Shown piece by piece: positions 2,916-55,472 of a DNA stretch of 64,000 nucleotides (position 1 is the first letter of the stretch; the number at the start of each line of letters is the position of its first letter). The notes beneath the pieces were generated by a model. That model had not been told where the DNA came from and did not search any database. It saw nothing but the letters and a program-made list of their open reading frames with translations. The stretch comes from Dastarcus helophoroides (lineage: Eukaryota; Arthropoda; Insecta; Coleoptera; Bothrideridae), in assembly GCA_028583605.1 (NCBI GenBank), contig CM053325.1, forward strand, positions 44,896,987-44,960,986, written 5' to 3'. A program made the translations under genes and the position numbers.

Positions 2916-4429
2916 CTCTGGTAGTGATAGTTAAAAATTGTTAACTTTCTTTCCACATCAAAGCAAATTTCAAACATCCGTCAGATGGACAGTACAAGGT
3001 AAGTATTCTTTTAGTTAATCAAAGTATTATCACAATATAGATTGTAGACAAATATCAGCTTTATCATTAAAACATGTATAGCGAAATCTATTTAGTATGG
3101 AATTTTCAGAGTCGATAAATGGACGTTAGGTTCAATTTATTTTCCTAAATAAATTCTAATCTATGTAGATTCATATAATAATTTGATATATTTTAGAAAG
3201 AGGTATGCTTCATAAGTTTTTATATTATACTACTTACTTTGATTGCAATATTTCCTGATTTCAGATTTTATTAAAAAAACATTTAATTTATTCCTGGGTT
3301 ATAAGTATCAAAGAATCTTTAACAGAAAACAGTTAATTAGTATTAATTAACTTTTTGGTTTCTTTTTCAAAAATAAATAAATTGTTTAAATAAATGAAAA
3401 CTATTGACTTTCTGGAAAAAAATTCTTCATAAACATCGTACCAGTCATGTGTCAGAACTGTTATTATTTATTCATTTCTTCCGAAAATTCGATAACCAAA
3501 AATATTAATTAACAAATATTTCATGTCAGAGAAATAACTGAGGAATTATTTAATTAAACAGGTTAATAATATTTCCCACCTTCCAAAGTCCTTAAATCGC
3601 ATTTGAAAAATAACTCTAGGAACTTTTTTGTATTATTCTGATTAGGGTGAAAAATTCCACATTTCTAAAATTCTAGTTTTCTCATCGTCAATAGTAAGTG
3701 CTGTTTATTAGTCTTAAGAATCACAAGAATTTAGTAAATATAAAAGTTAGGAAACTACCAAAATTTAAAAAAATGCTAGGATTTTCAAGCAAATTAATTT
3801 TCTCAATCGTCAGTCCAAAAAATTATAGATGTAGTACTACCTACTACTACTACATTTTCTTTTTCTGTGAGATCTAGATGGAGCATTTTATATTATTGTA
3901 TTTTCCAATAATAGATTTGGGTCGAATTTTTATTATAAAAATATTGCGTTACTTATTTTAAAAAGCATTTTTGAAAAATGGATATTTTTAACAACCATAT
4001 CAATTTCCAAAATAAAGATAAAATTACACAGAAAATACAATGCTGCATATTCCATCATAGCTCGATTTTAGAAACTTTCTGACTAAGAAACCATTAATCG
4101 CCTGCGTTAATATTAGTCACAGAGTAAAAAATTAGATTATAATAATATTTTGTCATGTAACCTTTTAGTGGTGGAATCTTGCCACACAAAAGGTACAGTT
4201 CCTACACAAAACGATATAAAATGTATGAGAATCTACACAACCTTATCACATGTCCACAGAGACTCACTCCTTGTCCTCTGTTAAAATGAAAAATACAGAT
4301 AACTAACACATGATGAAACTAACAATTACAAATATGGATAGAAAGCACTCTTTTTCTACACTAAATATTTCGTAACAACTACCTATCAGGTAAGATCACA
4401 CGGTTGAGTTCATATAATGTTTTACAAAT
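2916..4429. other. AT-rich 3' flank of the transporter gene
   Basis: No coding frame, repeat ends or RNA gene seen. Poly(A) signals for the minus-strand gene should lie here but could not be assigned with confidence. Confidence 0.5.
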
Positions 4430-4674
4430 CTACTGAAAACTGGCTACTATTTCACTTAGGGAGGTATACGTGCCAGCTATGAGTCCAACAATACCAAATA
4501 AGATTATAGTTACATTTTTAATATACATAAATGTTGCTTCGGTCCCCCTGGCAGTTTTCCAAAGGGCTCCAAATTCGATAAGTGCTGGTATGGCCAATCC
4601 TAGTGCCGACAAGCACAGGGCCCCAAAAAGTGAGATGAAGAGCTCTAATTTTGGAACAGCAACCGCCAAGCAAA
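4430..4674 (-). CDS. SLC36-like gene, last coding exon
   Basis: The acceptor TTTTTCAG ends at 4675 and the stop TAG is at 4432-4430. It encodes residues 391-471: CLAVAVPKLELFISLFGALCLSALGLAIPALIEF, then VTIILFGIVGLIAGTYTSL as the last span and a short tail ending VASFQ. The downstream 3' UTR could not be delimited; the first minus-strand AATAAA I see lies about 950 bp on, near 3470-3480. Confidence 0.94.
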
Positions 4675-7600
4675 CTGAAAAACAAAGACAAAAATTATGT
4701 TCGCCCCCGACTTCCTCAGAAAAAAAATATATCTTCAAAATTTCTCACAAATTATATTATTGGGTTGCATAATAAGAATAAGTATTGTCAATTTTATTCA
4801 AATTAAAAAATTTATATGAAAATTGCGATATTATTTGCTTCGTAAATTTAATTTTTTTGAATTTTCATTCATTTGGAATGGAATGTTAAGTTGATGAAAT
4901 TGAACGTTTTCGGCAATTGTATCCTTTCTTTTTTAATCTAGACAAGGAAAACAACAATGCATGGATACGTTTTTCGGGTGATTTTCTACAGAAGAGGCAA
5001 TCAACTTAATGGTTGAACGATGGGAGGTCATAAATAACGAAGAAAAATATATCAGTTATTAGGTTGGCGATAATTATAAAGTTAAAAATAAAATATTTTC
5101 GATTTGAAAACCTACCTACTTCCCAGCTTAATATTATCATAAAAAATCAACATTTCTAGAAATCTAGAGGCTGAACAAAATTTTAAAATTCTTGATTATT
5201 TTCTTAAAAGTTCGTATCTCGGGATGACTATTTTATTAGATCAGTCAAACTTTCAATTTATAAGTGAATATTCCAGGAAAATATCTGAGGATTAAGGATT
5301 CTAAACAAAGAGATTACTTTAATAAAACCTATATTTTTTGAGAAAAAAACTTAAAATGTTTTCTCTTTTTCTAGAAAGACTTTCTGAGGAAAACGAGACA
5401 TTTCTTAAAAAAACTACTTTATTAGAAATATCCAGGTTTTCGTCTTTTCCTATAAACCATTGTTTAATAAGAAAATTTAACATTGCACATTTAGACATAA
5501 AGATAGAATTTCGAGAAAAAGTCAAATATTCATACATACTATTTTAGAGTTTAAAAGTTGAATTCGTATATTTTTTAGTTCAAATTTTTTTTTGAACTTT
5601 TAGACAAAAGAGGAAGATATGATATCATTAATAACAGAAAAAAAGTTTTACCACATAAAATGAGTGCTTCGGTAGGCTATTATTTTTTGTCTTTCGATTT
5701 ATTTCCAAGAGAGAATTTTAAATTTTATTAAAGTTTTTAAATAACAAGTTCAAACTCTAATTCAAAAGTAGAAAAAAGAGAGGAAAGTAGAAATTTAAAG
5801 TCAAAACAAAACTAAAAATTTTCAAAACTTCAAGTATACCTGTTGATATTTTAAGTTTAAGGACACACTTTGTGAATTTATTTAAAAAACATCGACTTCT
5901 AACCTGACATTTTACGACTAAGATGGAATGAAAAACGAGTTCGAAATAAAACGAGAAAACTGAATTTAAAAAGAAAAAAATCGTAATTTCGAAAACACTA
6001 ACGAAATTTTTTAAGTTTAAGTTTAGAGAATCAGTTTTAGGAAAAAAATATGGATTGGAAGTATAAACTAGCAATTTTTAAATGAAAGTTTTATAGGTTA
6101 GTGTAAAATCTTGAAAAATAAAAAAATATTCAAAAACTAACATAGTTAAAATTATGAAAAAAGTCGAAGAAATTTTAAGAATAGTATTTAAAAAAACCGA
6201 CAATTCACGTAAAAATGATTTCTTTACACTTTGAAATATACTGAAATTAAAGGCGAATTATGGAAAAATAAATAATTATAATCATTAGAAAAATAAAAAT
6301 GTTGTGCCTAAAGCCAAAATTCAAAATTTTGGATGTATGAAGTAAAATATAATAGAAAAAAATTCAAAGCATAGAATCAGATTTTTGATAAAAAAAAAAT
6401 ATTGTAAAATAGGCGGCAATGTTTCCAGAAAAAGTCAAAATTTAAATATAAAGCTAGACTTTTAGAGTAAAATAAAAAACAGGTTGTAGTTCTAAATATT
6501 GTTAAAATAATATTATAAATATTATATTATGTAAGTCAGAAAATAAGTTACAATATGTAAAATATTGGACAAAACTTTTGTTATCCCTGTCATGAAAATT
6601 TAGGTCCTAAACCAACAGATATTTGCCGGTATCATGTAATTTTTTAATGAATCAAAAATGTCAGCACACTTGCAGGAATGAGAAATGAAATATTCTTACT
6701 TACATGTTAAAAGCACAAGACTAGTACGAATTACATATTCCAAAAACAACTGGTGATTGTTCTTTTCAAATCTTGGTTGAAGATATTGATTCCACGTTAT
6801 GTCAATAGCAACATAACACTGCAAGGAATGGGTGATATAAATCGCAAACGCCAAAAGAATTTTCGCAACTTGTGCCATGCTGAAAATAAATTACCACGTT
6901 AATTATTATATACCACATATTAATGCCGATATGCTTTTAATATGAGAAAGCTTATAAATAAGAAAATTTTGCAAGTACTTACACATCCTGACCAATGTTA
7001 AGTGTAATCGTTCCTTTGGTTAGGTCACCATAAGCTAGATAACCCAGCAGTCCCATGGCAACGTACAAAGCAATTATGGAGATCATTCCAATGTTAAGAA
7101 CTCCACAAGGACCGGCAAAAGCTTTGGGAGTTTTCATTTCATTTTCAAGAGGCAATATCTGAAAAACATAAATTTGTTAGCCTTGCTAAAAATAATGATT
7201 ACTATTAAAATAAGGTAAAATGGGCCCAGAAATTATGTAATTTGATATATTTCTCCTAAATTTTATTAATTTTGGAAATAAGCCATTTTTTGCATAGCAG
7301 TAAAAGCATTTACTAGACATGTCTATCATGTTTAAAAAATACTCACCACGCCTATGGCTTCGAGAGCAAATAGCACGGTCCCGAAGAAAAGCGGAAATTC
7401 TACTGGGCTGCCGAGTGGTTCTCGGTTTTCAACAGTGATGTCCGCTTTAACGAGGTAATACAAAATAATGCCAAAAGAAAATACTGTAATGCCATTCGCA
7501 ATCGTAGAAAATGGCGCTAGAAGTTTCAGGTTTTTTATGTAGTTTATTAAAATTAATGGTAATAGTATCATCAACATATAGAATTTGAGGTCAACTCCAG

Positions 7601-10600
7601 GCAGGTACACATCAACCACATCTTTGATATTATCAGCGATGAAAACAGTATAAACGCAACAGGTACCAAGTTGGTATATCAATAAGAAGATGTTTACTAT
7701 ATGCCTGAAAAAGAAACAGAGCCTAATTAAATTCATAAGTTTGGGTCTTAAACAATAACAAAATTATTACTCAAGAAAACATCAGTAAAAGCAATTAAAA
7801 GCTCTTATTAATTTATATTTATATCAATGTATTTTCAAATAATATAACAAAAAAAAAATAGAAAAATGAGGAACTGCGTCCAAACGAACTTTGATCAATT
7901 TGTTCGTTACATTTTCCGGAGCAGTGCCTTGCATTTGTTGAAGTTGCTTTCCCTCGCACAGGTAAAACAAAATATGTTTTAATTTACGTAAATAATAGGT
8001 AAAACTAGCACTAGAATCAACATCAAAATGAGCTTAAAGAGATTAATTCACTTATTAAAAAACATAACACTCTCAATTTCCAGATTTATACTATCAATTC
8101 TAAAAATGTCCAAGTTAATTAATATTCTAAATTTTTTTGCAAACTTCCACAAACATAAAAAAATACGTTAGATTTTTATTTGTTACAGAATGTGTTAGTC
8201 ATTCTGTCATTAATTTTAAGTAAATTATTTTAAGTGAGGTAAATATTACCCAGAGAATTATTTTTTCAAATTATAACTTAAACCCCTTTAAATGCATAAA
8301 TATAGAATTTTTTCGAAATTTCTACTTTTCTCAAAATTAAAAAATTTCGTTTTTTGTAATTATCCTAACATTCTGATTTCAAGCATGAAATAAAAAAGAA
8401 AAATTGCAATCTGTGTACTTTTCTAAAAATTTTGAAAAAACAACCTACATAAGAAGAAAAACTTTAAAGTTATCAACAAAAAAAAAATGCATTTGAAAAC
8501 ATTATACCGGGAAAATAGGTTGATATTTATTTATTTTATTTGGAAATTTTGTGCAAAACATCAGAAACTTTACGAAAACAAGTTAAAATTTCTAAAAAAA
8601 ACTTTTATTTCCAGTTTCACGACAACATTTTTATACATATAATAAAAATATCTTAAAAGTTCGAACTTTTGTTCTAATTTTCGCCTTTGAACTAAAAAAT
8701 GCAATTTAAACTCGAATATTCAAGTTTTTTTTAAATACTTGAGTAGGCCTGTAAATACTGTGCCGACCCTAAGAAATCAAATGTTGAACTATGTTAGGAA
8801 ATTCCGCCGTTGGTACATTTTTCATAAACAATATCCTTAACAACCGACAGATGATTAGCATACTTTGAAATTAAATAAGTGGTTTTATCATCGGACATTA
8901 ATTTTGTGGCTACAGCTTTTCTTTAGTTTTTGTTAAAATAGTTAATTATTTTCGTGCTTACCTTAGACATTATTTCATTTTTGTAAACATATGTTATATT
9001 TCGTCAAACTAATTCATTAAAGAAACCAAAAATATAAAATAGGAGCAATTAGTTTCATATTACTTTTAAATGTATTAAAACATAGTGGATTATCCGGCAA
9101 AAAAAATACGTAAAAATTGTTGCCATTTAGTTACGTGATATTCCAAGTTGCACTTGGTGAGTGATTGTATTTATAAGATCAAAAGCATTTTTCGACTTAC
9201 GAAGTTGTCTGTCTGTCAAAAGATTTTGTTGTAAATCAGGGGCGCCTGTCAGAAGCTTAGGTGTTGGTGTGCTCCTCCTTTATAAAATGGAATAACGATT
9301 TTTTTTTCGATATTTGTTCGCTATATCGTCGGAATACGCGCTTAAAATTAATCATGTAATGCTTAGGTTGCCCTGTATAGTTCGATACCTTAGATATAAT
9401 GGATATATTGTACTAAAAAGTGAAAAAAGCATCTCATTACTGTAATATTTCTATAATCTCCGTTCGCGAAATTGTTCACCTGGTTCATTATTTAGAAATC
9501 GTATCATCAAATTGCAATTAGTTGCCGCAAATTGACTAATTAGAGGAACTAATTTCGCTTTACAGTCATCATAAGCAGATGATACCAATACTTTTGGTTA
9601 ACCGTTGTTATGTCAATCTGGTTACCATGTACTTATTTAAAATTATCTGGTTCTCTCTAATCCATCATCTGCGGTTTCTATTAAAAATCTTTCTAGTATG
9701 TTTAGCTTTTAATAAGTTGTAACTCAAATATTATTCAGTGACGTCAAGTTATGACGTTTTTTCATATTATTTAGTCCTGTACTCTCAATTATATTTCCCT
9801 CCCTTTTTTCTTTTATTTTAGTGAATACAATGATAATTGTGGATTCTATTACATTATTCGTATAATTAGGTGCTGTATTTATCAATGTTCTGAAAATACA
9901 TTAAAAATGACAAAGGTATCACAATTTATAACTCGTCGTGTGATTTTATCTATTACATGCACACATGTCGGGTATTCCATCTCGATATGACCTACAACAT
10001 TTTCTAGATCAATTATATTTAATTGCATATAACATTGCATATAATGCCAAACAAACAAGGTGTATTAAACAGAAATAATTCCACAGCTATAACATTCATT
10101 TTAATATTCAATAAAGAAGTCGACCTTAAAAGAACTGCTACCAAAAGGTAATTTAAAAAAAAAGCAGTGGTTACTTATTTATAAAGCAATAATGAGTTAA
10201 TATTTCCGGCATAATTTAATATAGAAGCAAACAAAGAAATAAGTGTACTCTCTGCGGAAAAAAAAACTTAAACGGTCAAACGAATAAGAACACAAAAAGG
10301 GATCAACATATGGGCAATAATCAAAAAATCAAACTAATTCGCAAATAAGACATTTTAAAATTGGAAAACAAACACTCTTCAATTCTCCTTGTAATAATCT
10401 TCCCACTTTCAATGTAAACATAAACAGCATAAAGTATACTACGGCTATGAACATTATCGAATATGAGTGTGAAATTTTTTAATGAACAAATACTAATTTG
10501 AAGGACAACGTGTGAGTTCTAAAATATTTTAATAAATTGTTAGCAGGAATTCATTCCAAGAAATAAAATTGTGAAAAAATTCATAGAGTACTTAAACATC

Positions 10601-16600: not shown

Positions 16601-19600
16601 CGACACTTTAAAAATCGCTTATTTTATATCTACTGTATTCCTAAAATTGTGCAAATTTTACATTTAAAAGTCAAAAGTTGGTATCAGCTTTAGCAAAATG
16701 ACAGCAGCATTTTTAAGTTAAAAATTGACATTTCAGGAGTACATTAATCAAGTGGGGCAAGTTTATAAATAAAAAGAAATAGGGGATGTACCATGATTCT
16801 GTTACATATGGTTTAGTGTGTCTTAAAAGCCATGACCATTTCGGAAATTAGCAACAGGTTAAATTTATTTTTTAGAACCATGGAGTTTGGCGAAATTCGA
16901 TCCTCAAACATGTATGTAGTAGGAGGAAGATAACGGAAATGAAATTTTTTGGAATTTTCTACCATATTTTCCCCGTTAACCCCTGTCATATTGCACACAA
17001 ATTAACCAGAAAGATCTAAGGTTTTTTATGGTTGCAGCAAACCTACCTTCCTGCTGTCATTGGTAACAATTTTAAGAACCAATTTTGATCAAAATCCTTG
17101 CCCCAAAGAAACAAAATTAATGTGTCGGAACCATTTTTCCAAAAATTGGCAGTTTCCAGAATGCACACTATATTATATTAAAGAACTTCAATTTTTGCTT
17201 TGATCCGACTACATTTACATTTCATAGTGAGCCATAACAGAAGCCATTAGTAAACCCTTTTTTTTGTTGTAAATTTTGAATATTTACTTTTTTCTAAATT
17301 TTAAAAATATTACTGGCAAATTTAAATTTCTTTTCCAAAATTTCGATTGTAATTTTGTAAATGTTGGAATTTTCGACATTAGCCGACCTTTCCTTGAAAT
17401 TTCTAGTCAATTTGAAAGTAATCCTCAAAATTTTACTTTAAATGTCACGTCATGACTATTAAAAAACAGGTCAGATTTTACGTGGAACACACAATTCATT
17501 CAGTCCCACACAATGTGGACTGTGTGGGACTAAAAAGAAAACAAATTTACACATTGTATGTGCTTGTTCAAACCATGCCAGATACATATATAATCCGACT
17601 GGCAAGGAAACACTAAGATCAGAAGATCTGGAAGGAATGAGTGTAGGTCACAGGGTGAGCCTGGCTGTAAAGGCCGGGATATATGTATAATGTTGACTGA
17701 GACTCGAGCAAACTTGTTTAAGTTACAAAGGATTTGGAATCTGGGTGACAGGGCCTATAATGACTCCCACAAAACGAAAAAAATCTACTAATTAAATTGA
17801 GATACAAATTAAAAGAATATAAGTCTTTAATCGAATAAAAAACCACATAAAAAATGTAATAAAAATTAAAAGTCATGAGTTTTAGCTCATTTTATTATTT
17901 ACTTTTTGACCTTGAATGTGGTGAAAAGAAAGGAAAAATATTATTGGGCCGAATTAAATAAAAATTCACTATTGTAAGAAAGTTGAAATTTCTGGATTAA
18001 GACCAAATTTAAAAAAGAAAAAATGTAAAGAAGAACTCGTAACTTTTGAGTTCAAAGTCTAAATTGTAGAATAGTAGAAAAAATGTAAAGTATAAATTCG
18101 GGGTTTTAAGAAAAAGTTTTTAATTAAACACAATACTAAAATTGGAAAATTGGACACTACATGATTAAATACGAAATTTTGGAAATAAATCAAAACTTGA
18201 ATATGTAAACTTGAAATACTCAAAGGGAAATAGAAATTTCGGAGAAAATCGACAGTTGGGAAAAAAATTCGACTTTAAATTCAAAATTTTGAGAAGAGCA
18301 CCTTTTGATTTCATAGTCAAAATTTTTAGTAAAACGATAAAAAAATTTAAGCGGTAAGATGGAAATTTTAAGAAAAATTAGCCAATTAATAAGAGAAAAA
18401 CACATAAGAATCTTTTTTCTAAACTTATACTATAACGAGGACCTCGTTATTCTTTAATTTATGTAATGTCGTTAGATTTGGAAGTAATTAAATAGCTTAA
18501 TTTTTTAACTCAGCGATTATTTTCGGTTCTCGCTTTAATCTTTGTGTGAATTTTTATATTTTACAACTTCTCCCCGCTCCCTATTATGTTGATACTCATA
18601 TGCTGATTTATAAAACGATTAACGAGGTGACCAATTTATCAACACTTGTCTTACCTAGATAAAGTAAGAAAAATCTTGCCCTGTTTTCAAACCACTCTAA
18701 TAATGTATACAAATAAAAACCTCAATCAACAACACTACTTAACTGTTCTGAGAAAAATATTAATGTAAGTACTCTACGATTATAGAAGATACAGACCAGA
18801 GGCCATTATAAGGTCCTTGTACCTAACCTAAGTATACTAACGAGTAAAAGTGTTATTTCTAAATTATGCGTGGCCGCATGTAAATGTTTATTCGGGTCCA
18901 TGGGATGGTGAATTGCAAGGGTACTGTATAATTTCACTTTAAATGAGTATAAAAAAACGAACTTTACTTCAAAATTTTACTTTTCATGGACAGAAAAAAG
19001 ATACTCCGTTTCCTAATTTTTACTTTTGATGTCGAGAAATCAGATCCCGTCATTTCTGAAATTTAGAAGCAACCTCACGAGCCTAAAGTGACTCGTCTCG
19101 TTTGTCACCTCTAGGCGGGTCAGGAAGATCAAGTCTAATAACCTCTACAGGCGCTACAGATTCACGGATGGGGAATCAGTAGTAAAATGTAAATATTCAA
19201 AAAATAAATTTTGGTGTAAGTAATAAGATTACCGTAGGTCCAACAATGCATTTTTTCATTTTAAATTGGTTACTGTATGTGTTCCATTTTAAGATCACTA
19301 GAGTGATCTATAGTTTCTATAGTTTTAATCAAAGCTGCATAGGAATCTCGAATAATTTAGAGCAATGTTGTTTACTTTTTACATTTATTATTTTGCAAAT
19401 AAAATTAAAGAGCATATTATTTGTTGTTATTGGAATCAAATTTTGTTTTTCTTACTTTCTCAATATTTATGAACGTCAAACTGATTTTGTGGGATTAATT
19501 CATTATTAAAGACAATGGATACTTTACAAGCAAACTGATGCTAAGTTGTTAATCTTTTTTTTTTTAATTTAAATTTGATGAAAACAAAGTGATAACCCTC

Positions 19601-22600
19601 TTAATTGTTTCCAAGGCTTCACAAATTAATTTAAGGCCGGAACTATACTAATAAAATCATACTGAAGAACTAAATTACACTATACTTACACAATATATGT
19701 TGAACATTTTTGGAGCAACGTTGGTCCTTCTTCAAAAGCTGCCTCGGCTAATGCTGGATACGTAAAACTAGGAACTTTTCTTTTCTTACACAGCAAATAT
19801 TCTATTTTGATGAGCATTTGTATACAGTAGGTGCATAAACAGCCGATTAGTATTGTGCCTATCACACCGATTATGTAACCGGAATGTTGAAATGCCTTTG
19901 GCATAGAAAGAATACCAGTTCCCAGACTTCCTTTGAGGAGGTGGAAAAACGTTTCCGCGTTCCTGAAACAAACAATTTTTGTCAAATTTCAGTGGTAATT
20001 GGCCCGTGATTTTCAATAGCTCCAAACCTCCATGACATTAAAAGATAAGAATTGAGATATAAAAGCTGTACTGTCCAAACTGTACATACTCTATTCATAA
20101 ATGTTACTGCTGGGTGTTATTTTACTTGCAAAATGTATCTGATATATACGAAGCAAAGTATATTTATTTACTAATTAAATATTTCTTAGATTGATTTCAA
20201 TGATTTTCAATAATCTCAAAAACTACATGACATTAAAAGCTGAGAATTTAGATATAAAAGCTGTTTGTATGTGACACCAAGCATATAATTAATGTTTTCC
20301 AACTGCAGATCTCATTTTTTCCATGGATTCGCTGTAATGCATTATTGTGGGAAATGGTCAACTATACTGATGATTATTACAAGGAAGGGAGTTATTAATT
20401 ATGTATATATGTAAGGTCAGTCAATTTAACAAATAATAACTTTTGCGAATCTTCAGTCATTATAACACAATCATATACTTAAACGTAGGCACCTATTTAT
20501 AGCTGCAAAAGTCCCCAGTCCAATAAAAGTGAATGAACAATGAATTATCAACTATTAACATGCGATCCTTTTTATTGTTTAAACTTTAAGGATCATGGTA
20601 GTGAACTTCCTAAGTGACGTCAAATTATTTCAGTTACTTGAAAGCTATATCTGCAGTAAATTTTTATCTTACAGTCACTTTATAAGTAAAAGTGAAATTC
20701 CAAAATTTACTTACTAAGTGATGAAGAATGAAGAGTAATGAAGAAAAATGTTTCTGAAGCAGATTTTAAATCTTCACGGAAATTCAAGACATAAAAACAT
20801 CAAAATAAAAGTAAAATTTTTACCAATTTTAACACAAAAAAGAATTACCTGTAAACTTAAAATTAAAAAAGTGAAATTAAGGAACTTATAAAAAACTCTT
20901 AGTGAAAATTCCAACTTTAGACTTACAATTTCTATTTGACTTTATCTGAAAATATTGATTTTTATATTTCTAAATTAGTCTCACATTTTAACTCAAAATA
21001 TAGAGAATTTTGTTAATAATTTTTAGTTTTCGACTTTTTTCACAAAATTTCGTCCTTATAAATTTTAATGTTTGATATACATATTTTATTTATATATTTC
21101 TTTCTCTTTTCTAAAATCTTGATTATAAACTTTAAATTTCCACCTTAGTATTCAGCTACTGACTTTTTTTTGAATTTTTAAATTTTGACTCGAGCACTCA
21201 AATTTTCTTTAACTTTAAACCTAAAATGGAGAGAATTTTTCGAATGTGCGTTAGTTAGTCCATTTGTTCGTTTATCTGTCACAGTGGTTTTTTCAAAAAT
21301 TTTGTAACGTAGGAATGTGAAATTTGACACAGTATTAGTTCTTGAAACCCACTCATATATTGCGTGTCAACGATCAAAATAAAAATGTATTTTATATTGA
21401 AATGGGGGGTTAGTTTGGTGTTACCAAATAAAAAACGATAGCTAGCTGAAGCAGATAATGCAGATAAAATTTGTCCTTTACAATATTTTATTTAGATACC
21501 CTTTAGAAGCTAGCACAGGTTTATTAATTACACGCAACACAGTAATTACGACAGACCAGCTATTGACATTTAATTCACAATAATCAGATAAAACGCTGGG
21601 AACCAATGTACTTAATAAAGTCACTGTGATATTGTGAATACTTATTCCATTAGACAATTTTGGTGTTAAAATTATGATGTCGCCAGTTTCATAAATGTAC
21701 TATCGATTGTATAAGAAAAGTGTTTATTTAAAAATAAACCATTTATTCATTTTTAACTATCACACAAAAAATTTAGAATATAGATAGATAGATTTTAAGG
21801 TAATTTAATTTGAAATTTAAAATGTTTGTCCAAAATTTTGACTTGAAAATTAAAATTTCCATTTTTCGATATTTCGGCTTTTTATTTTCAAATTTATGGG
21901 CTTAATCTCCAAATTTTGACAAATGAAACAAATTCTGCAGTGTAAACTGAAAAACTTGACTACATTAAAAAAAGAGAAATTTATTTTCATGCAAATTCTG
22001 AGCTTCAAAATATACAATTTTTCTTTAGATATGCCGATAACGTTGTTTAGAAAAATTATAGGTTGTTTTGGAGATTTTAAATATTTTCTTAAAGATCACA
22101 CTTTAATATTTAAATTTTCCTAAAATTACAACTTCAATTAGCGATAATCACATTTAGTGATTTTAACTTTTTATTAATCTTGGTTTCAAGATCATTTCGA
22201 CTTTCTTTGAAATTTGGAACGTAATTTTAGGAAAATTTTCAGTATTATTATTTCGAAATGTCGACTTTTTTTCGAAATTTCGAAAATTCTTTTAATAATC
22301 AACATAAGGTATTGCTGTTTTGAAACTTTGAATAATTTCTAGAAATTCTCACTTGATTTTTACATTTTTTCTTAAGTTTCGACAGTAAGCAAAAATTTTG
22401 ATGTTTTAGAGATTCTGACTTTTTTTGGAAATGTTGATCTTTTTCTTGAAATTTTGTACTTATACTGTAACTTCATTGAATTTGCAGCTGTTTATAGCAC
22501 TCTGACGAATTTGCCAAACTTGTAAAAAATTTGAAAACCTAAATTAGAAAGGGAGGACTAGGTTTGTTTAAGCACAGGGAATTTATGTAGCCTACTACTG

Positions 22601-31600: not shown

Positions 31601-34600
31601 ACAATGTTAAATTAATCGATATTTCCACAAAAAAAGCAAAAGCAGTATAAGATAACATAAAAGCACGATACAAAAGCTAAAGATAAACACTAGCGAATTG
31701 GCAATCGTTGGTTATGCTCAGCAAGTGACGTCACACTTAAAACCATCATGACTAGTTCCGTTTTGTGATTTTTGTGATTTGTGACATTCGTTATCGAGCA
31801 GAATATTGCAATATTAAAATTTTAAAAATTAGCCGATAACGCTCAATAATTTATCATATTTATATCATTAAATAAGGCATTTTTTATAGCGTCAATGCTC
31901 TCTTATAGGGAAAGTAAGAAAATATTAGCTGCTAATAGATGTAAATTTGAACTTTTTTTTTGGACTCAATATATTTTTTTTGATTTTTTAATTTTTGATG
32001 CTATCAGTTGATTAACTAACAATAAATGAATTGTCTTAATTAGCCACACAAAACAAAATACGCTGATCTTATCATAAATAATTAACAAAAATGATATTTA
32101 TTTTGTGTGACAACCAAATATTAGAACATAGTAGGGATGTAACGAACATTGGTTTTCCCACATTCGCGAATGCGAATGCGAATCTTCATTTCCAACATTT
32201 GCGAATGCGAATTCGAATGTTAACTTTTTCCCTGGCACTTAAAAAATTCTGTGAGAAAAATCGAAATTTTCAAAATAAATCGAATTTGGAAAGAAAAACC
32301 CAGTTTCTAAGAATAAAGAATAGTTTTTAACCATTTTTATTTTCATTTAAATGTTGACACAATCTCGAAATTTACAAGAATTATTTTTTCTAAATTTCGT
32401 AGAAATACTATTCTCAAAATTGTTATGTTTTTAGCAAAATAATTATTCAGTTCGGGAAAAATAAACGAATGTTAATAAAAAAGTCGAATTTTGGATAAAA
32501 AGCTCAATTTTAAGTAGAAAATTCTCGAAGCATAAAATATTTGGTCTAAACTTCAAGAATAGAACGAACTTTGAGAAACAGGTTGAAATTTCCAGGTAAT
32601 CAAAACTTCGAGAAAAAGGCCAAAATTTCTATGAAATATCGAAAAACTTCAGTATTGTCCAATTTTGAGAAAAAAGGTAAAATTTTTGAGTTTACACTCA
32701 AAATATTCTGCTTTTTCAAAACTCGACTTTATAGTAGTAATTAAGAAAACGACAAATTATAATTAAAAAAAATAGTTTTGGAATAAACTGAGAATGTTCA
32801 ATAAATCAATTTAATAAAAAAAACTGACCTTTTGGAAAAATTTACAAGATATAAAAATTTAGAGAAAAAGATGATTTTCGAGGTAAAAATCGAAAGTTGC
32901 AAATACTTAAACAAATTTTGAAAAAAAAAGAAAATTTCGATGAAAATATCGACATTTTGAGAAAAATATCCAAATTTCGAGAAAAAAGTCAAATTCTGAC
33001 GAAATTTTAAAAAAAAGTGGGCGAATTTTTGAGGGTAATTTTAGGAAAAAAAGTCGATATTTCAAGAAAAAAGAGTCGAAATTTTTCGATTTAATATTTA
33101 TTTTTCAACGTCTAATTGAAGTAAGTAAGATCTATGAAATTTCGAGAAAATGGCGAAGTTTGATATTCAAGTCTAAATTTGCAAAAAGACGAATTAAAAA
33201 AAATGAAATTTTCAGAAAAAGTCAAAAAACGACGGATTTTAAGATAAAAATTTTAAATTTAAAAAAAGTCGGATTTCGATAAAAAACCTCGAATTTTAGG
33301 ATAAATTCGAAATTTCAAGAAAAAAAAGAGAAATTCTGTGGAAAAAAACGGATTTTTAGAAAAAAGTTGAAATTTCGACATAATGTCGAAATTTCCAGGA
33401 AAGGACCAATTTTCAAAAACAAATGAAAATTTTTGGAAAAGGTACCGTAGTTGAGAATATAGATTTTCGGTTGGTTATATGAACCTGGGGAGGACAAGCG
33501 CCCTAGTACCCTATTGTAGGTAATAAAAAAGAAAATAAAAAAAGAAGAAAAGGAAGAAAAAAAAGAGGGAATTAAAAATACTTTTTATTAGGTGGAACTG
33601 GATAATTACCGCATCAGTTTTAGGTACGTTACTAATGGACCCCCAAACTCATGATCTAGATGCTTCAAAGGTCCATGAACCACACTTTAAGAAACCCTGC
33701 CTTAGCAGTTGCATTATTATTCCATAAATAATTTCCGGTTTTGATGCCAAATACATTCGCAATATATTCGCATAATTTCTTGCGAATGAGAATGCGAATA
33801 TTAAAAAACATACGAATATTCGCGATTGCGAATATGCGTTACATCACTAGAACATAGTACGAATTTATATTTTTAAATGGAGGGTAGGATACGTTATCAA
33901 AAATGAATAACTTAGTCTTGTAGAGAATGCTTTTCAGTTTTTAAAATCCTGCCGCATTTTCTGTACAATCATTATTTTCCAAATTATTAATTACCAAAAT
34001 TTAGAAAGACTTTTGTTTTTAACTACATCGTACCGAACTCGACACCGGTCAGATTACAGAGGATGAAAAGACTTTTATGATGTGATCACATGAAAAGAAA
34101 GATTGTAGTTCGGGATTATTTTTAAAATAAAGCAAAAATTCGAAAACATATTTGGTCGACCCGACAGTTTGTTTACAATCACAACTACTGATACTAAAAA
34201 ATGTTGAACTCAACATATGAAAACTAAATCTTTAGGCTTTTAATCTGCTTTTTTTATCTCTGTGACCATTATTCTTCCAGTTGCAGCCTTTTAAAAATCG
34301 TCTAACAATTTATTATTATTTTCAGGATTATTTTAATTTCTGCGCCTTGCCTATAAAACTTTTTTGTACTTAACATGGATTACTGACTGAATAAAGCATT
34401 AGTAGCTACAGCCTGAAATGAAGTAGAAATTGATAGTGGAGACTATGAATTTTGAGAATAATAATCGATATTTTAAAAAGAAAATAATTTGAAAAAAATT
34501 ATTGCATACTTTTTGGTACGTTTTAAAAACGTGTTACGTTAAAATGGTTTTCTTTAATTTAAATTATTAACCGTGAAAAAATACCACTTTTTTATTAGGA

Positions 34601-44150: not shown

Positions 44151-44619
44151 GTTTTATTTAAAAAAACTCTGCTTTTATCTGTTTTAGAATTGTTATCGCC
44201 CAAGTAGAATAATCACTGCTGACTTTCAATAATGCGTGACTGCTGAAACCTAGATAGATACTACACAATATACCTTGCATATAAAATAGCTAAATGAAAT
44301 GGAGGATAATTGTCATAAAAATAAAAGTTTTACAAATTAGGCATTGACTTTATGCTGACAATGTTATCCTTTAATCCTTGCTGTAAGTTTACTAAATGAG
44401 ATGCTTGCTACAAAATGAACTTATTTCATTGGAGAAATGCAAGATTTTTCGTGAAACATATGTGGCATAATACATGTTTATGTTGGATTTAGTCTTGAGA
44501 GAAAAGTAGATTTGTATGTTGAACTTCAAGACAAACTTTCTGCTTCTCTACGAGAATTTATCTGTTTATTATAAAACAATTTCCCGTGATGTGCACTCTT
44601 GGTTCCACCAACCATTTTT

Positions 44620-45010
44620 GAAACTTCAAACTTTTTCCGGAAGTTTCCACTTTAAACATGAAATTTCTTACCTTCTTCCTATAATTTTGACTTTAATGTC
44701 AAAAATTTAAATTTTTCTCAAAATGTTGACGCTTTATCAAAATTTCGATTGAAAATTTAATTCCACTTCTATAAATTAATCAGCTAATAAGCAAACTTTT
44801 GCAGGAAAAACTTTCAATAGTCAAAATTTCAAAATAAATCTTGAATACAAGACCACGTTTTGAGAATAAAGTAAAAAAAAAGGTTAAAATTCTGAGTTTA
44901 AATTTGAGATTTTGTAATTAAAATTAAAATTTCAAGGTAAAAGTGGATTTTATTTTAATTCAACCTAAAAAGTCAAAATTGTAGAAATAAGGAGCAAATT
45001 TCGAGTTAAG
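44620..45010. repeat. Degenerate ~20-bp A-tract array, orientation switches
   Basis: Up to about 44760 the units read in reverse (AAATTTTTCTCAAAATGTTG), afterwards forward (GTCAAAATTTCAAAATAAAT). The switch point near 44780 suggests two arrays joined head to head. Confidence 0.45.
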
Positions 45011-47851: not shown

Positions 47852-49155
47852 CTCATTCCAACAGATTTAAGTCTATAGTGGAAAAATACCTACATACTTA
47901 TAAATATAGCATGATAAAAATAAGAACCTAATAATTTTAATGGTAATCATAAAAAAAAGAAAATGTATAACAAATAAAGAATCCTAACTGAATAAAAATA
48001 ACATAAATAAACATAAAATAAAATAAAAGGAATCCAATAATTTGGTGTAAAGAATTAATATTAATTTATTGAATAACAATACTACGTAACTCTAAGTAAC
48101 TGTCTTTTTATACGCGGAGAACTTAAATTGTCAAGAAATATATCTATATTTTGCGGAAGGCTATTAGACAGGCGAATGCATCGAAACAATGGGCTGTTAT
48201 AATGGTGCAAAGTGGATGGGATAATATGAGAAAATGCCATGGGATAGCGTGTGTTAGGTCGCGGAACATGAAAGTCAATTTGTCGCAACAAATCCTCGGA
48301 CCTTATTTTACCAGTAACAATTCTTTGAAAAAGTATTAAGTAGTGCATATTTCTGCGGCTGGTTAAAGGTACTTCATTGACCATATTTAGCAGCTACCAA
48401 TAATCACAGTTTTGCTCTGGATAATTTCCATACATTTTAAGAAATACATATTTTGCAAATTTCCTATTAATTCCTTCCAGCAGATTGTTGTAATTTTCAT
48501 AGTAAGGACTCCAGACCTGACAACAGTACTCGAGTTTAGACCTTACTAGCGAATAATATAATGCTTTTATACAGTGAATGCTTGTGAAGCCTCTCGTGTT
48601 TCTAAATACAAAACCTAATACTTTTGTGGCTTGCTTCCAAACTTGTAAAATATGAGGTATAAATGTGAGCTGCGCATCCATAATAACTCCCAAATCAGTC
48701 ATTTGGGTGCACCTGTCAATAACTTGGCCCTCGATCAAATAATGACAATTTATAGGATTCTGAATCCTGGAGAAGGTTAATATTTTACATTTCTTTTTAT
48801 TGAGTGCCAGTCCATTACAGTCACACCAACTTTGCAGAGAATCTAAATCATCCTGCAAAATAGAGCAATCATCTGCGTATATAAAAGTTCTACAGTTTAA
48901 ACCTACAACTACATCATTAAAGAAGATATTAAACAATAATGGACCAAGGTTTGAACCTTGTCCTATTCCGCTGGTTGGAAAGTAAGGGTTAGATCTAAAT
49001 CCACCGTATGACACAATTTGTTGTTTATTGGTTATAGTTGATTTTATTAAATTAACTAACGAGCTACTTAAACCAAATAGACGCAATTTCTTTAACAGTA
49101 TACAATGATGAACTTTATCGAATGCTTTCGACAAATCTGTGTCCCAAACAAGGTA
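47822..49155 (-). pseudogene. Jockey-like LINE, 5'-truncated, one in-frame stop, (TAAA)n tail
   Basis: From the edge near 49150 the minus strand reads DTDLSKAFDKVHH, a SGIGQGSNLGPLLFNIFFND motif, the catalytic FIYADD, then LALNKKKCKILTFSR, DLGVIMDAQLTF, ALYYSLVRSKLEYCCQVWSP, to WCDYW-stop at 48396-48394. The same frame continues past the TAG as LLNMVNEVPLTSRR to 48082, so one nonsense change interrupts an otherwise intact C-terminal reverse transcriptase. The 3' end is GTTGGAATGAG followed by about seven TAAA units (47822-47851 on plus), a typical LINE tail. The 5' part including endonuclease and ORF1 is missing. Confidence 0.92.
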
Positions 49156-49455: not shown

Positions 49456-49812
49456 CAGTAGCGTAGCTATCGGAGGGCTAGACGGGGCAGTGCTCGGGGC
49501 TCCCAAACTCAAGGGGCTCCTTGGACTCTTACTTACAAACTATAAATTGAACTAGTGAAAATTTCTCCCACAATCGGAATATAAATAAACCAGATTCCAG
49601 GAACGCGACTTTAATAATGGCAACTTGTTGTATTTTGATTTTTAATTATATTATGAGTCGAATGTATTAGGATGAATCTGGAGTTCGACGAATCTGGATT
49701 ACGACCAATCTGGAATACGTCGAATTCGGAACACGACGAATTCGGAACAAACGATTTTAAATAGTTTGGTTGGGGCCCTAGTTTATTTTTTGCCCCAGGG
49801 CCTACGCCACTG
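49456..49812. mobile_element. 357-bp hAT MITE with perfect 8-bp TSD
   Basis: GAGACAAC at 49448-49455 and again at 49813-49820 is a perfect 8-bp target-site duplication. The element starts CAGTAGCGTAG and ends CTACGCCACTG, inverted repeats differing by one or two bases. GC-rich flanking blocks (GGGGCAGTGCTCGGGGC and GGGGCCC / GCCCCAGGGCC) surround an internal tandem array. There is no coding capacity; the hAT call rests on TSD length and tips. Confidence 0.92.
49671..49750 (+). repeat. Five tandem 16-bp units inside the hAT MITE
   Basis: GATGAATCTGGAGTTC, GACGAATCTGGATTAC, GACCAATCTGGAATAC, GTCGAATTCGGAACAC and GACGAATTCGGAACAA follow one another without spacers. Units 1-3 share AATCTGGA and 4-5 share AATTCGGAACA, so the array grew by stepwise duplication. 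Not CRISPR: no spacers, and the unit is too short. Confidence 0.9.
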
Positions 49813-52439: not shown

Positions 52440-53170
52440 GACAAACCATTCAGTAATAAAGTCGAACTTTTCAAAATCTTTGGCATATTAAAAAAGATAT
52501 ATTCCGCGAGTCTAATGTAAAATTTATAAGACTGAAAGAAAAATTTTGAAATTTCATTAAAGTAATAACTTTTTGGTGTACTATCATTTTCAAAATTTGA
52601 ACGTCAACATCAAAAAATCGCTCCTGATAAAAAATTTCTCCAAAACATTCGATATTCAATAAAATTGAAATTTCTGGAAAAGCTTCAGATTTATAAATAA
52701 GTCTTAGTTGTAATATCAAAAATCATTTTAGATGAAGAAATGTATTGCCAATATTACATGTAAGGCCGAAAATTCGATACAAGAATGGAAATTTCCAAAA
52801 AATCTTCTAAATCTCGTAGTAAAATAGCTCTCTAAATTTTTAGTTTAAATTGAAATTTTCGAAATGAAAATCGAAATTTCGAGGAACAACTTCGAAATAT
52901 TTATTTTATAAAAACTAATTTTATTCCCCTTTTTTCTAAGAGTTTTACTATGTAGGCTTTAAATTTGAAATTTTAACGAATGCTCCGTTTTAGTATTAAA
53001 ACTGAGTCTCTGTAAAAGAACAGATTTTAAGAGAAAAAAAAATAAATTTTAGGGTAAGATAAACAAATTTTTATAGTAAAAATTTTGAGAAAATTGTAAA
53101 CAATTCCGAAATCTCAATTATAAAAAATGTCATTGTTCCCAAAAATGCATAATATTCCCAAAATTTTTGC
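52440..53170. repeat. Degenerate ~20-bp A-tract array, mixed orientation
   Basis: Blocks such as AAATTTCGAGGAACAACTTC and GAAATTTTCGAAATGAAAAT. It leads directly into the palindrome at 53184. Confidence 0.45.
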
Positions 53171-53183
53171 TATAAAATTCGAC

Positions 53184-53380
53184 AATTGAAATACTGAACT
53201 TGTCCCCTGAAACCAAGAAAGATTAAAAAACACAACAAAGGTTGCTCTAACGCGTTTCGACAGCCAAGCTGTCATCTTCAGAGAGAAGATGACAGCTTGG
53301 CTGTCGAAACTCGTTAGAGCAACCTTTGTTGTGTTTTTAATCTTTCTTGGTTTCAGGGAACAAGTTCTGTATTTCAATTT
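53184..53380. mobile_element. Near-perfect 197-bp palindrome with hammerhead/Penelope-like motif
   Basis: Arms of about 96 bp (53184-53279 and 53285-53380) around a 5-bp spacer AGAGA. They differ by only a few changes: CGCGTTTCG against CGAGTTTCG, one A in an A-run, CCCCTGA against TCCCTGA. Read outward on the minus strand from the centre, each arm gives CTGAAGATGACAGC, TTG, GCTGTCGAAAC: a CUGANGA box, a 6-bp stem, then GAAAC. That is the order of a hammerhead core, with one extra U before the stem. Such motifs mark the terminal repeats of Penelope-like elements. Activity is doubtful. Confidence 0.8.
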
Positions 53381-53419
53381 TTGAAGATAACCAAGGACCA
53401 GTTCGTTCCATAAAAAAAA

Positions 53420-53760
53420 ATAATAAAAATAAAAATTGGACTTTTAAGCTAAGGCTCTGAGAAAGAATTAAAATGTACAGACAAAAATGAAAATCTCTGG
53501 AAGTATATAAACATTTTTAGACAACATGTTTGTAGAAATTTCGGGTTTAAGGTCAAAATTTCACATTCAGGTCGAGGAGAATTTCTAAGTAAACATATCT
53601 TTTCTAGAAAATTCTATTTTAGAGGCCAAAATTAGAAATTCAAGGCACATTTTTTTATGGTAGAGCCAAAATGACAAGAAGGATCTTAAGTTTTCGACAT
53701 TAAATTAGTATTCTACTAAATTTTTAGTTAATTAATTAATTAAAAAATTATTAATTTTGA
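53420..53760 (+). repeat. Degenerate ~20-bp A-tract array
   Basis: Units such as GTCAAAATTTCACATTCAGG and GGCCAAAATTAGAAATTCAAG. Together with 52440-53170 it brackets the palindrome, which may have inserted into one array. Confidence 0.4.
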
Positions 53761-54246: not shown

Positions 54247-55472
54247 CAGTGTTTCCCAACCGGTGTATCGCGACAAATTAGTGTGTCGCTGAAGATTTTC
54301 AGGTGTCTCGCATATTAAACTTTAAAACATCAAATTGCTAGTAAAAAATGGCGAATAATAACCTTTTTTAGGTATCAAAATTTGTAAAGAAGGTTTGTTT
54401 TGGTCGTAATTCGTTTTTTTTTTTGTTATGATTTGTTAGGAGCTTAAGAATTAATTTTATTTAGGGATGCCCTTTTTTGCCGATTACATACAAAAATAAG
54501 ATTTAAAAACACTGTTCAAGACCAGTTCAGACTGTGCGCTGTCGCTCAGTCAGTTTTATGAAGTAGATTGTTGCCATTTTTTGAAAGATTCATTTTAACT
54601 CTAAACTTTTGCATTTAAGTTCGAAAAATCAATATATTTTATTTGTTGCTCAAAAAGAAGATAACATTTTCTGGCAAAAATTTGAAATATGCTAACAATT
54701 TTTTCTTTAAAATTTCGATTTTGTTCAAAGGTGAAATTGCGAGTTTAACGGCCACCAAAATCGGAAGAACTTTTGATTTAAAAAAAATATCGAAAATTTT
54801 ACGTTAGAATTGAAATTTTGAAATAGCTTTGAAGTTTCTAAAAAAAATTATCAGATCTGTGTTTTAAGTCAAAACTTAAAGATTAATATCTAGAAAACTC
54901 ATTAAAAAAATCTAGCAATTTCGAGTTTACTATCAAAATGTTCAGTTTAAAGTCAAAATGGGGGGATTCAAAGTGAAGATAAATATAAAGCATTAGGAAA
55001 AAACTCAAAAATTCTACATACAATTCTGAGCATTTCTAAAGTACTATTTTTGTTGAAGTTTGCAATTTAAGGTCAAATTTTCAAATTTAAGTTATTTGAC
55101 AAAAGTTGAATTAAAAAAATTAAGATGGCAAAAATCGATACTTCCAGAAAAAATTAAAACAACTTCAAAATTTAAATTTCAAGCTAAAAGTGAAAACTTA
55201 CAGAAAAAAATTCGAAAGTTTGAACTTAAACTCAAAATTTCAAAGTGGAAATTTTAAAAGAAACTCAAAATTTCGAGTTGCAAAACCTTTCTTGTCAAGT
55301 CCGCAATATTTTTAGCGACCAAAAGAAAGCTTATTACGTCAGCATATTCATTCATGTCGTGTCCATATTTATTTTTAACAACTAAAAAAAGTCATGGTTT
55401 CCAAATCATGTTCTTCTAGGCAGCCGCGAACCTCTGACAGTCACGCTGCAAACCCCAGGTTAAAAAACCCTG
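54247..55472. mobile_element. hAT-like non-autonomous element carrying an A-tract array
   Basis: Begins CAGTGTTTCCCAACCGGTGT, a tip seen in many hAT elements; the reverse complement of the right end reads CAGGGTTTTTTAACCTGGGG, and both ends continue with T..CGCG.C / GCAGCG.GAC-like sequence. The 8-bp flanks do not match (CTCTAGAC against CCCTTAAA), so the pairing of ends is tentative. The interior contains an A-tract array (about 54640-55290) and no transposase. Confidence 0.5.
54640..55290 (+). repeat. ~20-bp A-tract array inside the hAT-like element
   Basis: Repeated units such as AGTCAAAATGGGGGGATTCA, AAAATTCGAAAGTTTGAAC and CTCAAAATTTCAAAGTGGAA. The 65-codon frame at 55060-55257 is low-complexity and not a gene. 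Confidence 0.5.

Follow-up and report, generated by a model that had tools for sequence, protein, structure and literature searches.

A probable non-autonomous hAT family in the beetle Dastarcus helophoroides that carries a share of an A-tract satellite

We analyzed a stretch of 64,000 nucleotides from the beetle Dastarcus helophoroides (assembly GCA_028583605.1, contig CM053325.1, forward-strand positions 44,896,987 to 44,960,986), hereafter the window. It lies at 44.90-44.96 Mb on contig 1 of a genome of 538.9 Mb in 50 contigs; 13 of these contigs account for 536.1 Mb. At 32132-33849 the window contains a 1,718-bp non-coding transposon with ends of the hAT type and an internal array of degenerate A-tract units. 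The evidence below leads us to conclude that a non-autonomous hAT very probably captured a piece of a satellite that was already widespread and amplified only that piece. The A-tract satellite of the genome at large would have to spread by means other than this element.

Structure of the element and its array

The element is bordered by a perfect 8-bp target-site duplication, GAACATAG, at 32124-32131 on the left and 33850-33857 on the right. On the plus strand of the window this octamer occurs just twice, each time directly adjoining a tip on its outer side; the reverse complement is absent. The terminal inverted repeats, TAGGGATGTAACG at 32132-32144 (plus strand) and TAGTGATGTAACG at 33837-33849 (minus strand), match at 12 of 13 positions. 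A scan for 13-bp inverted tips with at most one mismatch, no more than 4 kb apart and flanked by a perfect 8-bp duplication, returned this single configuration from the window and none from 20 order-1 Markov resamples. The duplication and tips given in a preliminary description of this DNA were therefore borne out. The same description had confined the hexamer GCGAAT, or its complement ATTCGC, to the subterminal zones. A hexamer scan found 13 of them in the element, 12 of which do lie there, six at 32162-32212 on the left and six at 33755-33833 on the right; the thirteenth, at 33021, is within the array. Another 21 are scattered across the remaining window.

The array occupies 32253-33462 on the plus strand and is made of degenerate units of about 19.5 bp. 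As had been claimed for the interior, the repeat length is close to 20 bp: periodicity peaks at lags 19 (z = 6.2) and 20 (z = 6.7) relative to 200 shuffles that preserve dinucleotide counts. Lags 37-38 and 57-59 give weaker peaks (z 3.2-3.8). A circular profile, tried at 17-22 positions, fitted best at 20 and gave the consensus AAAAAaTCgAAATTTTgAGA; the limits of the array come from this profile, which was trained on the same array, so that the array's own score is inflated. A-tracts within it are spaced at 9.7 bp. Tandem Repeats Finder detects only short parts of this roughly 1.2-kb array because the units are degenerate. Classical satellite DNA forms long homogeneous arrays. The element's array is not of this kind, its off-register likeness being about 60-64%, and neither are the scored arrays outside the element, which reach about 2 kb in the DNA sampled.

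A non-satellite tail (33463-33754) joins the array to the right subterminal zone, and no coding capacity was seen in it by eye, without a profile search. The longest stop-free stretch in the element, located within the array, is 112 residues long, and inspection by eye, with no profile search run, revealed nothing resembling a transposase. The element encodes no transposase and is not an autonomous hAT. Miniature inverted-repeat transposable elements (MITEs) in the strict sense are very short, with lengths of hundreds of base pairs, and at 1,718 bp the element is too long to be one of these.

The element family and its probable affiliation to hAT

When the leftmost 109 bp of the element were searched against the genome, 883 first-look candidates were returned. 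Forty were scored, namely the window copy and 39 other places at 86-94% identity. A 21-bp family tip is present 487 times in the genome with up to one mismatch, and its reversed control is not present at all. The tip of the window copy has two differences from this family tip and is outside the 487, making this number a lower bound.

We fetched 20 of the 39 places, chosen by similarity to the window copy and referred to by locus number. All 20 align to the left end from base 1 or nearly so (base 2 in L034, base 4 in L032), and their flanks are unrelated. The 8-bp duplication is perfect in five (L018, L019, L020 with a 1-bp offset, L021 and L025), has one mismatch in another five (L023, L026, L030, L033 and L036) and two mismatches in L037. 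Many copies with 8-bp duplications had been anticipated, and this agrees with at least 487 tips and with duplications at zero or one mismatch in 10 of the 20 fetched copies. When the two flanks of L020 are joined, they align across the junction with a related repeat in the L019 flank that has a single GTATGTAA at this point, as in a paralogous empty site. Eight copies (L021, L022, L025, L030, L033, L035, L036 and L037) are 1,623-2,045 bp long. L018, at 6,476 bp, was considered as an autonomous element and rejected, since its additional DNA is a nested insert and not a hAT transposase; we take this insert to be like a long terminal repeat (LTR) retrotransposon from its protein motifs and its repeated end, without a profile search. 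Two copies are rearranged, L028 with an inverted piece of the tail and L024 with an inverted left end 672-737 bp in. At C4:33736053-33738199 two left ends stand 2.1 kb apart in opposite orientation, perhaps an element with two left ends, and L024 resembles this case at 737 bp. Nine exact matches to a 15-base tip pattern on viral contigs have no hexamer zone and were judged to be due to chance.

Terminal inverted repeats of hAT elements are 10-25 bp long according to an excerpt of a published account (PMC8961557), a range that includes the 13-bp repeats found here. The same excerpt gives nTnnnnAn as the target consensus of hobo and the Ac family. Family flanks conform to it: among 41 left flanks, some of them without a verified duplication, 33 have T at position 2 and 31 have A at position 7. 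In the duplication of the window copy, GAACATAG, the A at position 7 is present and the T at position 2 is lacking.

A genome search with PF05699 gave 1,156 first-look candidates, 150 of which were scored, and 59 hAT-transposase loci were read for 0.8-1.5 kb downstream, two of them upstream as well. Transposase-bearing hATs end in CGTTGCATCACTA at five of the 59 loci and in CGGCACATCACTA at 15, with one and two mismatches, respectively, to the element tip CGTTACATCACTA; these counts omit three-mismatch matches and isolated two-mismatch matches in L049 (beside its real tip) and L066. Both loci that were read on two sides have a matching left tip and a perfect 8-bp duplication, CTGTCAAC in one and ACAAGTAT in the other. 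In the CGGCACATCACTA group, tandem subterminal hexamers GGATAC take the place of GCGAAT. The target consensus and the near-identical tips of transposase-bearing hATs, along with the 8-bp duplications, support the assignment of the element to hAT that had been proposed for it. In the Hermes model, as excerpted from PMC10368747, BED domains of the transposase bind subterminal repeats; by analogy, the GCGAAT hexamers are presumably binding sites for a transposase.

Other hATs were seen in this search. L047, L049, L050, L063 and others form a transposase-bearing family, perhaps a young one, with GGATAC-type subterminal hexamers and the tip CGGCACATCACTA; in several copies an open frame of about 400-600 residues spans the hAT domain. 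Another group, with PF05699 matches at positions 9-83 and equal domain scores (for example C2:29078859, C10:645246 and C13:30205635), contains open frames of up to 861 residues in several copies and was possibly active recently; the downstream side of one copy of this group (L054) had no tip like that of the element. Comparison of 124 listed tips with 76 listed hAT matches on C1-C6 gave one pair less than 15 kb apart. Its transposase, 8 kb from the tip, was rejected as the element's own because it lies upstream of the tip and outside the element.

Inheritance and growth of the array across copies

The preliminary description held that the element moves a satellite array around the genome. With regard to its own array this is correct. 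All 20 fetched copies contain a plus-orientation array that starts 107-307 bp inside the left tip. A second sample of 20 copies, selected by the exact 21-bp tip alone and sharing no copy with the first, had a plus-orientation array within the roughly 0.73 kb read in 20 of 20 cases, although two of these (L087 and L093, scores 14.4 and 14.7) are barely above the threshold of 14.

Alignment separates the copies into groups. In the leading local-alignment blocks, L019, L020 and L036 are 84-90% identical to the window copy, and L022, L035 and L037 are 64-65% identical; blocks aligned off register are at 57-69%, mostly near 60%. Global alignment, in which gaps were not counted and three copies with nested inserts were left out, gave 91-92% among the window copy, L019, L020 and L036, and 83-87% within the L022/L035/L037 group, which is 75-79% identical to the others. 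The four close copies are equidistant, with Kimura two-parameter distances of 0.093-0.099 for all six pairs, as might be expected after one burst. Ungapped 40-mers of the array have their best match within 150 bp of register at 56 of 58 positions in L019 and at 54 of 58 in both L020 and L036, and the more distant L037 and L022 still give 37 and 35 of 58. Mean identity at the best place is 83-86% for the three close copies and 68-70% for L037 and L022, compared with 62-64% at the second-best place. The arrays are in register between copies, and therefore the array, already degenerate, was present in the source element.

Array length was predicted to vary inside copies, and to some extent it does. 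In ten pairs of copies other than L023, indels of more than 5 bp reach at most 122 bp. L023 itself (C5, about 26.62-26.63 Mb, together with L038) is a 10,285-bp copy whose right tip is present and whose duplication has one mismatch. Between its own two ends are a 347-bp direct repeat (99.7% identical) around a 3.7-kb LTR-element-like insert and, from about 4,400 to 9,820, an array region of about 5.4 kb, compared with about 1.2 kb as the usual length, with non-array spacers of about 216 bp. This region is built of repeats of 58, 88, 146, 234 and 604 bp, several of them 100% identical. Some of these lengths are successive sums (58+88=146, 88+146=234), which suggests stepwise duplication. In L031 (with L101; C13, about 0.77-0.78 Mb) the left end leads into several kilobases of array of matching orientation. 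As no right end is present in 13.3 kb, this locus is at most a candidate for a second re-expanded copy, and it is perhaps an array that lost its element.

Another conceivable reading is that the array is functional, its phased A-tracts serving to bend the DNA of the element or to position it and being kept by selection. The A-tract spectrum of the window copy has one coherent peak at 9.7 bp with a power of 53.1, whereas the highest value among 150 control windows was 20.8, and five of 12 other element arrays (L020, L021, L030, L033 and L037) also exceed 20.8, at periods of 9.35-10.2 bp. However, coherence is lost in sisters that are about 91% identical (power near 10 bp of 11.5 in L019, 15.5 in L036 and 25.1, at 10.2 bp, in L020), as drift with indels predicts, although several other copies do have weaker peaks at other periods near 10 bp. 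We rejected selected helical phasing on these grounds and regard a functional array as very unlikely.

Arrays outside the element and the genome-wide satellite

Five arrays of similar units lie elsewhere in the window, at 17977-18377 (plus strand, profile score 36.8, no family ends), 22194-22454 (minus, 29.9), 44615-44744 (minus, 31.6), 52767-52898 (plus, 23.7) and 54784-55277 (plus, 36.2); the maximum score in one 64-kb order-3 Markov sequence was 10.0. The element had been offered as the explanation for these arrays. This part of its proposed role did not hold up, as no tips, family left ends or tails are found beside any other array in the window and 487 elements would hold only about 0.5% of near-consensus units in the genome (see below).

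We extended the comparison to the window and 12 of the 20 loci, a non-random sample from which eight loci with a then-undefined element extent were omitted. Here 28 outside arrays cover 7,202 of 126,473 bp (5.7%), a third of this in one locus, and one Markov control had none; for the window alone the cover is 3.4% of non-element DNA. An alternative to capture is that the hAT family is the engine of satellite spread and the outside arrays are its old relics that have lost their ends. This would fit the re-expansion of L023 with exact higher-order repeats, the long array of L031 without a right end, and the similarity of the unit inside and outside elements. When seven arrays were trained separately (two from the window, those of L033, L029 and L031, and one inside each of L026 and L037), each gave an ordered unit similar to the others, TCRAAATTT and then a run of A, with a best fit at 18-20 positions, although the arrays had been picked by the element's own model, which favors similarity. 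Against such an origin, none of the 28 outside arrays has a recognizable family left end or tail, where relics below about 70% identity would escape detection, and, apart from one unrelated insert, the window arrays match those of the elements at only about 58-68%, like off-register units. Outside arrays of at least 150 bp also align with one another no better than units do, with two exceptions: one pair overlaps, and one 95-bp match is the right end of elements in the flanks. Across the window and those loci whose element limits are known, tail probes gave five short matches of about 60 bp outside elements. We rejected these as family relics because all of them involve positions 1-75 of the L033 probe, which match a repeat at 53136-53447 of the window and are therefore a foreign insert in L033. 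That repeat is interspersed, about 310 bp long, with inverted parts of about 60-75 bp, and pieces related to it are inserted in L025 (73%) and in the tail of L033 (84-89%).

Counts over the whole genome bear on the same question. The 18-base unit TCGAAATTTTGAGAAAAA occurs 55,142 times with up to one mismatch, compared with 13 times for its reversal of equal composition, and 13 elements contain seven such 18-mers. By extrapolation, 487 elements would hold about 260 units and 883 first-look candidates about 475, or 0.5-0.9% of the total. The genome-wide number is about 200 times the load of 487 elements, and even a tenfold larger number of tips would account for about 5%. Clusters of a 29-base satellite word are visible elsewhere in the genome among the matches listed. 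Among these listed matches, the outer 40% of contig 1 holds four of 24 exact tips versus 34 of 45 clusters (Fisher p = 3e-6), a split that was chosen after inspecting the positions of both; satellite words thus appear distal and hAT tips interior on this contig. Taken together, these results make it improbable that the hAT family drives the spread of the satellite. We also rejected an apparent polarity of the satellite along a chromosome arm, in which the first 100 matches listed were nearly all on the plus strand over 20 Mb, because the 29-mer shows mixed strands there, with minus-strand matches missing from the first list, so that the polarity was an artefact of listing.

It could also be that tandem duplication within the element itself produced the array, and that its likeness to host arrays is that of any A/T-rich phased repeat. 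The unit is simple and A/T-rich, and excerpts of PMC12628747 describe arrays that form and expand within transposons. Against it stand the similar ordered units of the seven separately trained arrays and the count of 55,142 for the 18-mer compared with 13 for its reversal of the same composition, and we consider an origin within the element highly improbable.

Other features of the window

Part of a gene for an amino-acid transporter (PF01490 among its best hits) and remains of reverse transcriptase also lie in the window. A 16-bp tandem repeat, GAATCTGGAATACGAC, is present in about four copies at 49674-49749, close to a remnant resembling a long interspersed nuclear element (named by eye) and near a reverse-transcriptase-like open reading frame at 48394-49134. 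Rfam gave no match anywhere in the window, and ARAGORN found nothing in it.

Discussion

Our preferred interpretation is that of capture. The source element would have been an Ac-type hAT, with 8-bp nTnnnnAn duplications and the tips TAGKGATGTAACG, that lost its gene and came to hold a stretch of the host A-tract satellite between functional ends in place of the transposase gene. A hAT transposase supplied in trans would recognize the tips and the GCGAAT hexamers and move the whole unit by cut and paste, leaving 8-bp duplications. At least one burst, and two or more subfamilies, would lie behind the several hundred copies. The array would be a passenger: it multiplies whenever the element does, accumulates substitutions and indels by drift and, in one copy or more, has re-expanded in place into higher-order repeats. 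The wider genomic satellite would spread by other means. We favor capture over export because 55,142 near-consensus units exist genome-wide versus seven in 13 elements, and the same abundance leads us to infer that the host satellite is older than the element's array.

Several observations weigh against this interpretation. Among the fetched copies, L022 and L035 have a right tip but no duplication, and in seven others (L024, L027, L028, L029, L031, L032 and L034) no right end was located within the stretch examined. The empty site for L020 is a diverged paralogue rather than an allele, 65% identical over the alignment, close at the junction and with many gaps beyond. None of the 59 hAT loci, as read 0.8-1.5 kb downstream and at both ends in two, combines the exact tip with GCGAAT hexamers. 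As these loci yielded no autonomous partner sharing the ends, mobilization in trans would have to be argued from the tips, duplications and relatives; a cognate autonomous element may be extinct or may lie in loci outside those read. The outside arrays of the window contain no near-consensus 18-mers, so that these neighbors are as poorly preserved as the array of the element; near-consensus units must then sit in other arrays that are in better condition. Finally, the direction could be the reverse of capture, with the satellite seeded by an ancient element at a time before the present copies arose. A related scenario makes hATs a nursery for satellites, in which the 55,000-unit satellite was seeded by expansions in place, such as that in L023, during a long history of related hATs. 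We consider this unlikely.

Transposons that contain tandem arrays have been described before, and the spread of satellites is often attributed to them. Among these, the Helentron HINEs have Helitron-type ends, and the present element has inverted tips and 8-bp duplications instead. A published 610-bp non-autonomous hAT is similar in its short tips, its 8-bp duplications and its assignment based partly on the target consensus. However, that consensus is Buster-type (nnnTAnnn) and the word 'tandem' is absent from the text consulted, whereas the present element is 1.7 kb long and Ac-type, with a satellite interior. Cg_HINE Helentrons of the oyster Crassostrea gigas (PMC7492417) are likewise dispersed and non-autonomous, with conserved ends and satellite-like central arrays, but they belong to the Helentron superfamily, whereas here the ends, the target consensus and the 8-bp duplication are those of a cut-and-paste hAT, and elements contain only a minor part of the satellite. 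Inverted-repeat elements with internal satellites are described from Xenopus (PMC12628747), among them miDNA4 of Scalvenzi and Pollet, which also has a satellite array but is described as a MITE of another superfamily, Tc1/mariner. Tetris of Drosophila virilis (PMC4079207) is another DNA transposon linked to an emerging satellite, but it is a foldback element that supplies building blocks to the satellite, whereas here the host satellite far outnumbers the element's share. The oyster Helentrons and the Xenopus elements are the nearest published cases that we found. Among the search results listed from open-licence papers we saw no hAT with a packaged satellite, which is weak evidence of novelty; of two reviews on routes from transposon to satellite, one has the word hAT solely in its reference list (PMC9659126) and the other lacks it (PMC6947457).

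In D. helophoroides a single genome allows separate counts of the element and of the satellite, and by these counts the element carries only a small part of a repeat that must have another way of spreading. The family also provides an ordered series for an array boxed in between transposon ends, in which divergence of the units came before, divergence of the copies came after, and re-expansion came last.

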